A stretch of 23,467 bases of DNA from a virus. Each line of letters starts with the position of its first letter. Positions within the stretch are counted from its first letter, which is position 1. Of the stretch, positions 2,121 to 18,230 are shown one piece after another. The position numbers and the translations under genes were made by a program. The notes under the pieces were generated by a model that was not told the DNA's origin, did no database searches, and was given only the letters and a program-made list of their open reading frames with translations. The stretch is taken from IMG/VR virus record IMGVR_UViG_3300009285_005504, positions 1 to 23,467 of that record, one strand, 5' to 3'.

Positions 2121-2145
2121 AAAAAGAAAGGAGCCCCCTGGCTCC
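2121..2145 (-). terminator. leftward rho-independent terminator
   Basis: Stem GGAGCC (2130-2135) pairs with GGCTCC (2140-2145) around a four-base loop. Read on the minus strand the hairpin is followed directly by TTTCTTTTT (2129-2121), the normal layout of an intrinsic terminator. The plus strand lacks a T run after the stem, so it works leftward only. No annotated leftward gene ends here; the only upstream signal is the promoter at 2347-2374. Confidence 0.65.
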
Positions 2146-2340
2146 GCAACTTTGCTCTGTCTTCTTAAAAGCTCCCCTTCATTATTTTTCTTTCGTTTCC
2201 TTCTCTTCTTCCTGTGCACAATGTTTCGTCTTCCTTCGTTTTGAAATTCAGCTTTGAGGGTACTACGACTCTCTTATTCTTCTTTTTTTTCTAAGTAGGA
2301 TTAGCCCTCTCATAAAAAATACCCAAAAATCAAAAAGTAC
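2121..2340 (-). ncRNA. predicted noncoding RNA or attenuated leader, about 220 nt
   Basis: The ends are inferred: a near-consensus leftward promoter predicts a start near 2340, and an intrinsic terminator predicts an end near 2121. Between them there is no plausible protein; only very short frames exist (a 16-codon frame from 2313 and a five-codon frame further down). The RNA would have a U-rich 5' part, a possible GAGGG/CCCTC pairing, a purine-rich middle of roughly 65 bases with repeated GAAGGAA-type words, and the terminal GC hairpin. It could be a phage small RNA or a leader controlling read-through into the small-gene operon at 1890. Both remain hypotheses. Confidence 0.4.
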
Positions 2341-2346
2341 CTTAAA

Positions 2347-2374
2347 ATTATAGCACACAGTACATGAAAGTCAA
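2347..2374 (-). promoter_or_regulatory. strong leftward sigma70-type promoter
   Basis: On the minus strand TTGACT (2374-2369) and TATAAT (2352-2347) are 16 bases apart, and the -10 is preceded by TGC, an extended -10. This is the best promoter match in the window. The predicted start is near 2340. One arm of the inverted repeat (2359-2369) fills the spacer and touches the -35, so a protein bound there should block it. Confidence 0.65.
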
Positions 2375-2443: not shown

Positions 2444-3019
2444 ATGGCAATACATCGCGACAATAAGCTCGTCAAATCAGCTCATTATGCTAGCATTTTG
2501 AGGAAAATTACCGAAGAGACAGTAAAATATCCAGAAGGTAAATTTCCTGTAGCAAAATTCTTCAGATTGTACGTCGAACCTGCGGTGCCGAATTACAACT
2601 TGAGAGCTTTCAGAGCTTTTCTCAAAGTTTTTGACAAACAGGCAGATCAGATGGCAACGAGAGCGCTAGAGAGAATCAATTCAGGTGGGAAAAGTGATGG
2701 GAGAATCGAATCAGATATGAAAATAGAAAATAGTTCACAGCGAATCATCGCTGATGCTAAGACTTCCACCCGTCTTGGCATAGCGCGAGCTCTTCAAGTT
2801 GGCAGTGACGCACTCGCGCAAATTCTTGAAGACCCAGAATCTATGTCGCTCGCTGAACGTACCGATATTCTTTTCCGCGCCATGCGTGCCCAAGATTCTC
2901 GCATCGTTGCTACTGCGCAAATTCGTAAGGACGCGCGCGAAGAAAAAGCATTTCAAAAAGTGTTCGGTGAAGCGATCTACGACGACGATGAAATAATCAA
3001 TCCGAATAATGTCTCTTAA
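2444..3019 (+). CDS. probable terminase small subunit
   Basis: This 191-residue protein lies directly before the large terminase and overlaps it by 11 bases, the usual place for the DNA-recognition subunit of the packaging motor. I chose the ATG at 2444 (MAIHRDNKL) because the promoter -10 at 2428-2433 lies downstream of the other possible start at 2405. The N-terminal third (KFPVAKFFRLYVEPAVPNYN, then LRAFRAFLKVFDKQ) looks helical and could form the DNA-binding part. The centre is polar and probably flexible. The C-terminal half (ALAQILEDPESMSLAERTDI, then REEKAFQKVFGEA) is helical, with an acidic end (YDDDE) that could contact the large subunit. The sequence alone is not diagnostic; the call rests on position and architecture. 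Confidence 0.6.
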   Translation: MAIHRDNKLVKSAHYASILRKITEETVKYPEGKFPVAKFFRLYVEPAVPNYNLRAFRAFLKVFDKQADQMATRALERINSGGKSDGRIESDMKIENSSQRIIADAKTSTRLGIARALQVGSDALAQILEDPESMSLAERTDILFRAMRAQDSRIVATAQIRKDAREEKAFQKVFGEAIYDDDEIINPNNVS

Positions 3020-4727
3020 AGCGCACATCAATCAGGAGGACAGTAAGGAGTTGATCAAGGAGTTATCTCCCGAAGATCGCGAACGTGTCGCGTGGGGGAA
3101 AAAAGGAAGGAAAGACCCGGTGTTTTTCTCTGAGGAAGTGCTTGGGGTGAAGCTGCATGATGGACAGAAGTTGTGGATCTGGGTGACGACGAACACCCGT
3201 CACGACCTCGCTGGTTCTCTTGGGATAAAGATGGGAAAATGGAAGGATTTGGCTGAATTTGAAGAACTTTTAACAAAATTACCTTCGTTCCAGAGGAACA
3301 TTTTGGTGCCGTCAAACCGGTGGGGAAAGACGCTTTGCACTTCGGTGAAACACATTTGGTATAACTTTTACAAGATCGGGACTCGAGGCAGTGCGTCCGA
3401 GAAGGCCAGTATCAAGTGCGGGACATTGAACTTGTCCCCGCACAGTAATCAATGTCAGGCCGCGTACGAATATATTATTTCCATCCTGTCGTCAAACTTT
3501 ATCTATGTGATCGACGGGAAGTCATATCGGAACAATTGTAAGATTGGCTACTTCCTTGGTGTGCCTTCGTTGCAGCGAAGACAGATTCCTTTTTCAAACA
3601 ACACCTTTTTCAGAACCGTGCCGACTGGTGAGGACCAAGCTTCCTCACTCGCTGGAACTCCGTACTTGTATATTAGTTACGACGAGTGCGCGCAGAGTCT
3701 ACACTTGAAGGATGAGTTGCCGGCAAAAATTATGAGTCGGTTGATCGACTTCGGTGGTCCATTAGATTTGGTATCGACTCCGGAAGTTGATAAACCGTCG
3801 CACCAGTATTTTCATCACATCGCGAAGTTGGGACTGGAAGCGAAGGAGGGTTGGTGGACGCTGCTTGGAAAAATTACTGACAACGTATTTTTGGATCCAG
3901 CACAACGCGATCAGGTGGTGGAGAGTATTCGCATGACTGACCCAGCCAAGTATCGGCAGGTGGCGTACGGAGAGTTCGTGACCACCGGGAAAAAGATGTT
4001 TGACTCGCTGCTCGTTGAGCAGTTGTGGGATCGAGTGAATCCGGAGATGCCAATGCAAGGGCGGAAGTATTTGATTTCGGTGGACTGGGGATTTGCGGAT
4101 ACTGGGGATCCGACGGTGATCTACGTGTTGGATTATGAGGACTCGCCGAAGTATAGGATTGTGTACCGCGAGTCTATTCGTGGTGGATCACCGTTCGCTG
4201 TATTGGCGACAGTCAAAATGTTGCAGCGGGAATGGAACGGGGCGGTGGTGGTGCACGACGCGAATGCGCTGGGGGGGACGATGATGCGGAAGATGATGCG
4301 GGAGCTGGAGATCCATTCGTTGAATGACTTCATTGCCAATGGGGGGAACAAGGCGGATTTGCTGTTTCGGATGCAGCTCGTGATGAGTGCGAATAGGCAG
4401 ATGAGTGTGGATGCGGATGGGAAGGTGATTGAGGGGAATCCAAAGTTCGGGAATTTGCGGTCGTTTTATATCCCGGTGCTCGAGGAACAGATGGGAAATT
4501 ACCAATTTAACCCCGAAAAAGGGGTCAGCGACAAGAAGATTGAGCAGGATGAGGTGATGGCACTCGGGATGGGTATCTGGTGGTTGGAGAAAAAGGCTGG
4601 TCATCTTGCGGTAAAACAGTTACAATTCAATCCGTTGGCTAGTGACCCGAAAAATATCTTTCCAAAGACGACTGCGAACACGCTCAAGGTACGAAGTATT
4701 ACTATCCCTGAGAATAGAATTTTCTAA
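3009..4727 (+). CDS. terL: terminase large subunit (packaging ATPase-nuclease)
   Basis: This 572-residue protein pumps DNA into the prohead and cuts the concatemer. The ATPase domain has a Walker A of the terminase type (PSNRWGKT, residues 101-108), a Walker B with catalytic pair (YLYISYDE, D225-E226) and a coupling motif (VSTPE, around 255-259). The RNase H-like nuclease domain shows its expected acidic residues: D359 in ISVDWGF, D417 in VVVHDANALGG and D514/E515 in EQDEVMALGMGIWW. The length is typical of the family. The ATG at 3009 overlaps the small-subunit gene by 11 bases, suggesting translational coupling; no SD is seen. A run of seven G occurs at about 4271-4277 in the nuclease region, but the frame is intact. 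Confidence 0.95.
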   Translation: MSLKAHINQEDSKELIKELSPEDRERVAWGKKGRKDPVFFSEEVLGVKLHDGQKLWIWVTTNTRHDLAGSLGIKMGKWKDLAEFEELLTKLPSFQRNILVPSNRWGKTLCTSVKHIWYNFYKIGTRGSASEKASIKCGTLNLSPHSNQCQAAYEYIISILSSNFIYVIDGKSYRNNCKIGYFLGVPSLQRRQIPFSNNTFFRTVPTGEDQASSLAGTPYLYISYDECAQSLHLKDELPAKIMSRLIDFGGPLDLVSTPEVDKPSHQYFHHIAKLGLEAKEGWWTLLGKITDNVFLDPAQRDQVVESIRMTDPAKYRQVAYGEFVTTGKKMFDSLLVEQLWDRVNPEMPMQGRKYLISVDWGFADTGDPTVIYVLDYEDSPKYRIVYRESIRGGSPFAVLATVKMLQREWNGAVVVHDANALGGTMMRKMMRELEIHSLNDFIANGGNKADLLFRMQLVMSANRQMSVDADGKVIEGNPKFGNLRSFYIPVLEEQMGNYQFNPEKGVSDKKIEQDEVMALGMGIWWLEKKAGHLAVKQLQFNPLASDPKNIFPKTTANTLKVRSITIPENRIF

Positions 4728-4732
4728 ACACT

Positions 4733-6439
4733 ATGCCTTTGACGAAGGGGGACATGACACCGGGAGAGCAGAAGAAATTTGAATTTAATTTGAACAAAGA
4801 TTTTGTTGCTGCGAAAGACGAAACGAAGCATGATTTATTGTTGCGACAGAATGGGGTAGGTGCGAAGGCAGGTTCCACCGGGAAACAGTTCGCTGGGTAC
4901 ACAACGCTCGAGCGCTTTTATCGGGGAGATCAATGGCCAGCGGATGAGCCACCGGGCGCGGCACAACGAACGGACAATTACTGCGCGGTTATCGTTGACC
5001 ACATTTCCTCTTTGATATTTGATGATCACCCAGAGATAACGTGTCCGACGAACGATCCGTCTGATGAGCTTTTAGAGATTAAAGCAGAGTTGAAAGAGCA
5101 GTTGTTGCAGCGAGTCTACGACGACAATGATTCAGAAGTAGAATTTGACGAGTGGGCGAAAGGGACATCACTCTATGGTGATGGCTTTATGTTTGGTCCG
5201 TGGATGGAGAAGGTGAACAAAGACGGCGAGATTGTTGCACCAGATGATAAAGGTGGTACGTGGCAGATTCGTTTTCAACACGTTGAGAATCCTGGTTCGG
5301 TGCGACTGATATTTTCAGATTCCAATTTCAAACGACTCGATGGTGTTATAATTTCTGATCGTATCTCTCTAGCGCAGGCGACACGCATGTATGGCAAAGC
5401 AGCGGAAGCGAAGGGAATTAAATTAGTGGCGACGGTCAATACGCAATCATACGACGGCACGAGGACGGATGGTGACACAATGATTCCGATGGTGAACATT
5501 GATCGGTACTGGACGCGGACGACGTTCTCGACGCATATCAATGACGCGCTCGTTGATTTCTACTTGCACAACTGGGGCTTTGTGCCACTTGAGCACGTCA
5601 AAAACATCTACGTGCCGAACCACCCGTATGGGAAGTCCGACATCGAAGATGTGCTCGATCCTCAGCTCTCACACAACCGAACCAATAACGACCTAGCCAA
5701 CTTGCTTCGCTGGATTTCAACCGCGAACTTCTGGGGGAAGAACTTAGAAGGGATGCAAGCGCTGGTAGCCGGACTCTCACGTATTTACCAATTACCAGAA
5801 GACGGTGAGATCCATACATTCGAGAAGCCCGGAGATCCGTACGTGACCAACACCTATGTTCAACAACGCCGCTCCGCGCTAATCGATATTTCCGGTATCT
5901 CTGAATCGTTCCTTTCTGGTTCGCAGTTGTCCGTTTCTTCCGGCCGAGCACTTGCGATGGCCTATCAAGGAACGATTCGAAAGTTGAATCCTCGGATGAA
6001 GCGGTTCTGCGTTGCCATGCAACACATCAATGCGAATATTTTGAAACTGGCTGAGATGTACTTCCCAGAAACGAAAGTTATCATTGGTGGGGATTACAGA
6101 ACCAAGGTGTTCTTGCCTGCGACGATTCTGCGAAATATCGTGGACACAATTAATAAATTTCAGGCAAATTTAATATCGCTTGATACCGCGCAGAAAGAAG
6201 CTGGTGTGCAACGACCGAAGATGGAGCAGAAAGTTATGAAGAAGAATTTGGAAGATCCAGTGCTCGGCCCGCAGATTGCTCGACAACCAGCACTCCTTCC
6301 GCGACTCCAGGAAGGACAGAATCAGCCAGGGGATCAGCCGACTCCTGGTCCTGGTCAAAGTTTTACGAGTCCTGGTGGATCAATAAATGCCAACAACCAA
6401 CAGGCGAGTGGGGCTGCTCCTACTCCAGTAACTGAATAA
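4733..6439 (+). CDS. portal protein
   Basis: This 568-residue protein forms the dodecameric ring at the capsid vertex through which DNA passes and to which terminase docks. The N-terminal region has the portal-like pattern YRGDQW (63-68) followed by NYCAVIVDHISSLIFDDHP (82-100), which marks the start of the conserved core. The centre contains VLDPQLSHNRTNNDLANLLR and a later segment (ISESFLSGSQLSVSSGRALA, then MAYQGTIRKLNPRMKRF) typical of the crown/stem helices of portals. The C-terminal 60 residues are Pro, Gly, Gln and Asn-rich and probably disordered. It starts five bases after the large-terminase stop, without an SD. Position and motifs agree; I am confident of the role but not of the subfamily. 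Confidence 0.88.
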   Translation: MPLTKGDMTPGEQKKFEFNLNKDFVAAKDETKHDLLLRQNGVGAKAGSTGKQFAGYTTLERFYRGDQWPADEPPGAAQRTDNYCAVIVDHISSLIFDDHPEITCPTNDPSDELLEIKAELKEQLLQRVYDDNDSEVEFDEWAKGTSLYGDGFMFGPWMEKVNKDGEIVAPDDKGGTWQIRFQHVENPGSVRLIFSDSNFKRLDGVIISDRISLAQATRMYGKAAEAKGIKLVATVNTQSYDGTRTDGDTMIPMVNIDRYWTRTTFSTHINDALVDFYLHNWGFVPLEHVKNIYVPNHPYGKSDIEDVLDPQLSHNRTNNDLANLLRWISTANFWGKNLEGMQALVAGLSRIYQLPEDGEIHTFEKPGDPYVTNTYVQQRRSALIDISGISESFLSGSQLSVSSGRALAMAYQGTIRKLNPRMKRFCVAMQHINANILKLAEMYFPETKVIIGGDYRTKVFLPATILRNIVDTINKFQANLISLDTAQKEAGVQRPKMEQKVMKKNLEDPVLGPQIARQPALLPRLQEGQNQPGDQPTPGPGQSFTSPGGSINANNQQASGAAPTPVTE

Positions 6440-16714: not shown

Positions 16715-17770
16715 ATGAAAATTTTACTTGGGAACAATACGCTTTCTATTTTGGCTGGCAGCGAACGGTGGACAGAGACACTGGCGCTACAGCTAAAAAA
16801 GATGGGACACGACGTAACGGCTTTTAGTCCGGAGCTTGGTGTCATCTCAGAAAACCTGCAAAATGCGGGTATCTCGTGCATCAATGAAGCGTCTCCTTCC
16901 GGGATCAAACCATTTTCAATACTCCTTGAAGAAAAGAAAGATCTCAGTTTTGACCTCATCATTGCGAACCACAATCACATCGTCCGCTACTTGCGCTACC
17001 AATTTCCAAAGGTACCAATCATCTCTCCGGTTCACGGAATTATCCACAAGATGACTTTAGAAGATGGCCGTGAGGTTGATGCTCCAGAGCATCCAGCTAC
17101 TGACGCGAATGTTGATCAGTTCATTGCCGTGTCTGAAGAGGTCCAGCAAGTCTTGAAAAAGGACTACGATCTCGATTCCTTCTTGCTCCGTAACTTCTTT
17201 GATTTGCAACATTTCGATGCCAAGCGACCAATCAATCCAGATAAGCCAGCAACGATACTCGTTAATACAAACTATTTTGGCTCACACGATCATGAGATTG
17301 AAATCATCCGGGAAGTAGCGAAACATTATGGCGCGCGTCTCGCAGCCACTGGTATCAACTTCGCTGTCTCAAAGGATATGATGCAGGGGATTGAGGATGC
17401 TGATATTGTCGTTGGCATGGGTCGTAGTGTGCTCGAGGGAGTTGGTGCTGGTCGACTCGGAATCGTGCATGGCCGCTGGGGAACTGGTGGCGTTGTCCAC
17501 GAGGGTTCTATCGAGCAACTCCGGCGCTTTAATTTCTCTGGTCGTAATTCCGGTGGGAAGTTGTCTACTGCCGCTGAACTCATTACTGAGATCGATGAAT
17601 ACTACAACGATAAAACAGTAGCTTGGGGGAAACAGTACATGCGTTCCCAGCACAACGTCGTCTTTGCGGCTGAGACATTGATCCAGCTTGGGCGTGGATT
17701 CATTGAACGAAATCAGAAGCCACCGGTCGTCTCTGACCGTCGGCCGTATAGATTAGCAAAAGATGTTTAA
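16715..17770 (+). CDS. GT-B glycosyltransferase (GT4-like)
   Basis: This 351-residue protein is predicted to transfer a sugar from a nucleotide-sugar donor. The N-terminal Rossmann-like half starts MKILLGNNTLSILAGSERWT, then ETLALQLKKMGHDVTAF, the acceptor-side pattern of GT4 enzymes, and later has a VPIISPVHGI strand. The C-terminal half has a strand-turn-helix series including VVGMGRSVLEGVGAGRLGIV and HEGSIEQLRR, placed like a donor-binding site. I chose the ATG at 16715 because the promoter -10 lies between it and the alternative start at 16685. Its stop overlaps the HNH gene. The substrate cannot be told: host surface glycan, phage virion or phage DNA are all possible. Confidence 0.78.
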   Translation: MKILLGNNTLSILAGSERWTETLALQLKKMGHDVTAFSPELGVISENLQNAGISCINEASPSGIKPFSILLEEKKDLSFDLIIANHNHIVRYLRYQFPKVPIISPVHGIIHKMTLEDGREVDAPEHPATDANVDQFIAVSEEVQQVLKKDYDLDSFLLRNFFDLQHFDAKRPINPDKPATILVNTNYFGSHDHEIEIIREVAKHYGARLAATGINFAVSKDMMQGIEDADIVVGMGRSVLEGVGAGRLGIVHGRWGTGGVVHEGSIEQLRRFNFSGRNSGGKLSTAAELITEIDEYYNDKTVAWGKQYMRSQHNVVFAAETLIQLGRGFIERNQKPPVVSDRRPYRLAKDV

Positions 17771-18230
17771 GATTAAAGAAAAAGATATAATTCGTTTTTG
17801 GTCTAAAGTAGTAAAGACCAAAGATTGTTGGAATTGGACCGCTTCTCTTGATAGTTACGGATATGGACAAATAGGAATCAATGGTCGATTAGTTCTTTCA
17901 CACCGTATCTCATACGAACTGTCTTTTGGAAAAATACCTAAAGGAATAAGTATTTTGCATACTTGTGATAATCGACGATGTATCCGTCCTCAACATTTAT
18001 ATTCAGGAACACAATTCGATAATATGAGAGATATGGTATTGAGAGGAAGACGTGCTGATACACGCGGAGAGAAAAATCCTCACAGTAAAATTACTTCTAA
18101 AGAAATATTAAAGATTCGCAGACTCTACGCTAAAGGCGACACAACTCATCATAAATTGGCTGACATGTTTGGACTAAGTTATGGGTATATTTCTTATATT
18201 ATACGTAGAATAAGTTGGAAGCATATATGA
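17763..18230 (+). CDS. HNH homing-type endonuclease with C-terminal helix-turn-helix
   Basis: This 155-residue protein carries an HNH nuclease core: H47 in VLSHRISYE, H66 with C68, N70, C73 and H78 in LHTCDNRRCIRPQHLYSG, and NMRDM after it. C22 (DCWNW) may complete a metal site. Residues 110-150 (ITSKEILKIRRLYAKGDTTH, then KLADMFGLSYGYIS) look like a DNA-binding helix-turn-helix of the type attached to free-standing phage homing enzymes. The gene is visibly richer in A+T and in AGA and ATA codons than the capsid genes. It overlaps both neighbours (8 bases upstream, 4 downstream), so it has been fitted between two glycosyltransferase genes. No intron is evident. Confidence 0.88.
   Translation: MFKIKEKDIIRFWSKVVKTKDCWNWTASLDSYGYGQIGINGRLVLSHRISYELSFGKIPKGISILHTCDNRRCIRPQHLYSGTQFDNMRDMVLRGRRADTRGEKNPHSKITSKEILKIRRLYAKGDTTHHKLADMFGLSYGYISYIIRRISWKHI

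Follow-up and report, generated by a model that had tools for sequence, protein, structure and literature searches.

The locus and its genomic context

Does the DNA to the left of the terminase genes of this virus encode a small RNA of its own, or does it hold the attenuated leader of the genes lying beyond it? The window (the whole stretch of 23,467 nucleotides analysed here) is a linear IMG/VR virus record in which TerL, portal, major capsid protein and endolysin were recognisable. The sequence-only reading had placed the locus next to terminase genes. The large subunit gene was confirmed (terL, plus strand, 3009-4727; PHROG terminase large subunit, E 4e-16). The small subunit gene (terS, plus strand, 2444-3019) had no PHROG or Pfam match, and it is presumed because of where it lies and because relatives have homologous genes. 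The late operon, led by the presumed terS and then terL, runs rightward from the unit, and an operon of small unknown genes lies on the left. An HNH endonuclease gene was found in the downstream late operon (17763-18230). No tRNA was detected within the window.

No related DNA, TerL or portal protein was found among 50,697 deposited phage records. Since neither TerL nor the portal protein was matched, the phage family has no cultured member in that collection. Major capsid protein matches in phage records were distant, with under 32% identity among the matches listed. A scan of GTDB with TerL gave no match. The portal protein matched one contig in an Omnitrophota MAG, representing a sister clade, though a place in that bin is no proof of the host.

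Promoters, terminator and operator-like repeat

The near-consensus leftward promoter claimed previously was recovered on the minus strand at 2374-2347, with TTGACT (2374-2369), a 16-nt spacer and the extended -10 element TGC-TATAAT (2355-2347). It agreed with the consensus at 11 of 12 positions and was the top promoter-like site of the first 6 kb in a motif scan. The leftward intrinsic terminator also held up, as a GC-rich hairpin and a U-tract at 2145-2121 (minus strand), about 200 nt from the promoter. Its stem is GGAGCC-AGGG-GGCTCC (2145-2130) and its tail is TTTCTTTTT (2129-2121). Taken singly, neither promoter-like nor terminator-like sites were more frequent than in shuffled sequence. 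Their pairing, defined as a promoter of at least 11/12 plus TG and a strong terminator 50-350 nt further on, was seen a single time in the window, and 60 dinucleotide-preserving shuffles gave none. By its motifs, the unit has a promoter and a terminator of its own, both expected of a stand-alone small RNA. The predicted transcript, here RNA1, would be about 220 nt long (about 2341-2121, minus strand), starting near 2341/2340 and ending at the terminator.

An inverted repeat with 11-nt arms, 100% complementary and 20 nt apart (AGTACATGAAA at 2359-2369 and TTTCATGTACT at 2390-2400), overlaps the -35 element of this promoter. It sits between divergent promoters, as a rightward promoter-like site for the terS/terL operon (TTGCTT-17-TATACT, plus strand, 2404-2432) was read by eye, outside the scoring of the scan. 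The equivalent place in the relative L024 holds an 18-nt palindrome, CTATTGAAATTTCAATAG, and the divergent promoter region of that phage (400-560) also carries operator-like tandem repeats, TTTTCAATAGGAAAATGATAAAA. The repeats in the window and in L024 suggest that the divergent promoters are subject to repression or switching, and the operator-like repeat of the window probably regulates the RNA.

Past the terminator, a second leftward promoter-like site (minus strand, 1985-2013; TTGCAC-17-(TGC)TAAGAT) precedes the small-gene operon, which runs from 1890 to 441. It is a consensus match only; the scan gave the same -10 and an overlapping -35. Relatives also show promoter-like sites past the terminator, seen by eye or as weaker or partial matches. 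Nucleotides 2225-2215 of the RNA are perfectly complementary over 11 nt to 2012-2002, where the second promoter has its -35 region. This complementarity had no conserved form in the other members and was set aside. DnaA-box-like sequences (TTATCCACA) were seen between the RNA terminator and the leftward genes in L015 (1578 and 1643) and L024 (87).

Conservation in relatives

The sequence-only reading had staked its proposal on conservation in related phages, and a homologous unit was found at the same place in five of them (L010, L015, L022, L024 and L025), giving six members with the window. Most of the relatives were reached by way of their TerL, independently of the RNA, and the DNA left of each terS was then read. 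The L010 sequence aligned to the window unit with a score of 36, against 26 for the best of 100 shuffles. A pattern built from this alignment detected L022, where the unit adjoins that phage's own terS/terL, and homologues were likewise carried by L015 and by L024 and L025, the last two reached via TerL. In all six members the unit lies between the divergent terS and the leftward small genes, with position and strand constant. The L015 TerL gene (2534-5356) and that of a sister phage, L014 (2449-5169), contain large in-frame insertions, intein-like by eye, the L015 insertion being at the conserved SYDECAQ/SLHLK region.

For confirmation, profiles were built from five members and the whole examined sequence of the sixth was searched with nhmmer. 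Each member was recovered at one place and on one strand, the window at 2320-2213 with E 9e-9 and the other five with E-values from 3e-13 to 6e-23. Across most of the unit, alignment columns had a mean pairwise identity of about 0.35-0.54; on both sides this fell to about 0.2, the promoter spacers and the downstream DNA having diverged. Records of 45.9, 39.0 and 11.1 kb each contained one copy of the unit. Longer scans yielded no further members, and DNA-pattern scans gave chance matches only, except for L022 and the members already known.

The promoter was found in all six members, with an extended -10 (TGN-TAWAAT) in five; that of L025 reads TTGACA-17-TATGAT. A U-tailed terminator was present in the window and in four of the five homologues, L010 having no clear U-tract. 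The terminator sequence was not conserved among members, whereas that of the RNA body was. Two things are thus established: the promoter and terminator motifs, and a conservation that holds for position, strand and sequence in all six phages and does not extend beyond the unit.

The unit was conserved as an RNA and not as a protein. The statement that no credible protein lies between promoter and terminator agreed with our finding that no ORF inside the RNA is shared or conserved across the six members. One candidate was a short leader peptide (MRGLIL..., ATG at 2313), whose start codon is aligned in four of the six members. We rejected it and consider it very improbable: the four peptides have 12, 13, 16 and 23 residues with no common ending, L015 and L025 lack such an ATG, no clear Shine-Dalgarno sequence precedes it, and the same bases show compensatory changes.

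Predicted structure of the RNA

The members share an order of elements. From the 5' end these are a GG box, a U-run, hairpin 1, a 26-column gapless spacer and hairpin 2, and then a 3' part made up of an A/purine-rich linker, a G-rich stretch, an AARACAGAGCA box and the terminator. A covariance model of the family (R1) matched the window at 2343-2122, a match that is circular on its own as the window copy was included in the model.

The 5' box, GGUACU (minus strand, 2336-2341), includes the GG (AAGG-like) that the members conserve close to their 5' ends, and in the window copy it can pair with AGUACC at 2264-2259. Hairpin 1 (minus strand, 2297-2308) has the form AGGG-CUAA-UCCU, with loop variants CUAA, CAAA and UUAA, and a U-run (2319-2314) comes before its stem. 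In the six phages 27 of 30 cells were paired (90%), with compensatory change at two of the five pairs, and this register paired better than every slid register. Read as plus-strand sequence, only 21 of the 30 cells were paired, the difference being due to the G-U pairs of the hairpin. The predicted hairpin 1 is thus supported by covariation. Hairpin 2, of the form GGUA-NNNN-UACC in relatives, pairs wholly or partly in five of six members. Its equivalent in the window (minus strand, 2257-2269) is shortened, and the loss of bases means that the hairpin cannot form there.

Just 5' of the terminator lies the conserved box AAGACAGAGCA (minus strand, 2153-2163). The sequence TGCTCTGT occurs solely in this box in the examined sequence of the window, L010, L022, L024 and L025; L015 has the variant ACAGGACA. 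The RNA had been described as purine-rich in its middle part with repeated GAAGGAA words. The word is present twice there, but it is particular to the window copy. What the relatives retain is hairpin 1, the A-rich linker and the box before the terminator (ACAGAGCA). By eye, the A-rich, ARN-like linker and the U-tail are features considered for Hfq-dependent small RNAs. In four members (L015, L022, L024 and L025) the AT-rich surroundings are interrupted by a GC-rich block (GGGCGCGGGCGGGG-like), which is poor in the window and L010. The fold energy of the RNA was no better than that of shuffles (z +0.5), and therefore the case rests on conservation. Apart from hairpin 1 covariation was weak, since only six sequences were available.

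Alternative explanations

We consider it probable that the unit encodes a stand-alone phage small RNA of about 220 nt that acts in trans. The main rival is an overlapping packaging DNA site, that is, a conserved DNA element such as cos or pac, or another terminase or replication site left of terS, lying inside the transcribed unit. Cos and pac sites are commonly located just before terS, as in lambda, and the GC-rich block of four members recalls cos overhangs. That block is nevertheless poor in the window and L010, and the record ends fall outside the unit. Conservation begins at the transcription start and stops at the terminator, and hairpin 1 varies through G-U pairs tolerated only by a minus-strand RNA. 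We regard a DNA site as unlikely. A link to the terminase by way of the RNA, in the manner of phi29 pRNA, would make RNA1 a packaging cofactor or a regulator of terminase expression. The terS/terL neighbourhood is invariable in all six members, and pRNA is likewise the product of a similar-sized RNA gene near packaging genes. However, proximity is not function, and RNA1 is absent from relatives whose TerL is about 45-50% identical. The Rfam model of pRNA did not match it, and the window phage has TerL and a presumed TerS, whereas to our knowledge phi29 motors have no such pair. This role seems quite improbable.

The attenuated leader was the other role that had been offered, along with a stand-alone phage RNA, and it fared worse of the two. 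Here a terminated RNA would act in cis, controlling read-through into the leftward small-gene operon, after the model of the terminated lambda pR' leader under Q or of put-type antitermination RNA. The terminated RNA does share its orientation with the small genes, and in L010, with a promoter-like start and no clear U-tract, read-through would be possible. Yet no conserved gene under such control was found past the terminator: among 77 ORFs there was one homologous pair, which was not the first gene, and the first leftward genes were non-homologous between members. Differing downstream genes, together with the promoter-like site that the window and other members have past the terminator, make a leader for a conserved gene unlikely and favour a stand-alone RNA. 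It also counts against a leader that the terminator sequence varies while the RNA body is conserved. Lambda 6S RNA, the terminated leader of the late promoter pR', resembles RNA1 in its length of about 200 nt, strong promoter and intrinsic terminator. RNA1 differs in its direction, away from the late genes, and in the lack of conservation among the genes past its terminator. On balance we consider a cis-acting leader or attenuator improbable.

RNA1 was also compared with known RNA families. Searches of Rfam 15, at the gathering thresholds and at E 10, returned nothing meaningful for it, and no annotated relative was found in the collections searched. Bacterial 6S RNA (ssrS) is similar in length, about 200 nt, but its Rfam model did not match and RNA1 lacks the long closed hairpin with a central bubble. 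Small regulatory RNAs encoded by phages include lambda PreS (LPR1), OOP and aQ, P22 sar and DicF; they are 50-220 nt long, several have their own promoter, and their targets (dnaN, cII, Q, ant, ftsZ) are known from phages and prophages of cultured hosts (PMC12197685). RNA1 is like these in being the predicted product of a phage gene for an RNA that makes no protein, though it is unrelated to them by sequence or Rfam, and in their case the hosts are cultured and the targets known. An intergenic small RNA encoded by a phage is thus a known kind of element, and the RNA1 family is new to Rfam 15.

A second RNA family in sister phages

In the more distant relatives, which lack RNA1, the slot beside terS often has a leftward promoter and terminator of another kind. 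Further left of terS, a stretch of about 225 nt (RNA2) was conserved on the minus strand in eight phages: L008 (2310-2534), L016 (3957-4181), L007 (3716-3942), L053 (1007-1231), L003 (3666-3890), L017 (2248-2470), L011 (3061-3382) and L014 (927-1178). The RNA2 consensus had compensatory change at 22 of 39 pairs and 96% of cells paired, a level reached by none of 500 shuffles. The alignment had been fitted to the model, so the count of 22 leans towards it; with just the four founding sequences it was 14 of 39. We found no match for RNA2 in Rfam and regard it as a strong new candidate for a structured RNA. Neither of the RNA1 and RNA2 covariance models matched the other RNA, and no record searched contained both.

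Just left of terS, the sister phages have their own leftward promoter and/or a short unit with a terminator, unlike RNA1 and often strongly self-complementary. Such minus-strand units were located in L014 (1740-1560) and L033 (2395-2265), and upstream of terS in L053, L003, L007, L008, L011 and L017. The slot left of terS seems to collect small RNAs. It could be a dedicated non-coding RNA locus, with RNA1 in one clade and the unrelated RNA2 in sister clades, both serving one infection step and having replaced each other; we hold this only as a tentative and rather doubtful proposal. If it is true, the shared step may be, for example, blocking host defence or helping packaging.

Proposed function and significance

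In our preferred reading, that of a stand-alone small RNA, RNA1 has an extended -10 promoter to itself, situated left of terS between the divergent genes; host sigma-70 RNA polymerase would start there and stop at the intrinsic terminator. We infer both the production of the RNA and its action in trans from these elements and their conservation. A scan of the gene starts of the three largest genomes found no shared antisense target. Of the mechanisms left, action in trans on the host or on a protein would be the most likely. Hairpin 1, the A-rich single-stranded linker and the box before the terminator would most likely be the parts of RNA1 that bind a protein or a host RNA, and the binding would favour phage development.

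Little is known of conserved non-coding RNAs in phages other than the model systems. RNA1 is defined well enough, by its boundaries, promoter, hairpin, boxes and six members, for a transcriptome search, deletion and expression in trans. Following it up also uncovered another RNA family in the sister phages, one whose covariation is very strong. Should the slot beside terS prove to be a general RNA locus, RNA-based control or counter-defence could be approached experimentally through it in phages without a cultured relative.
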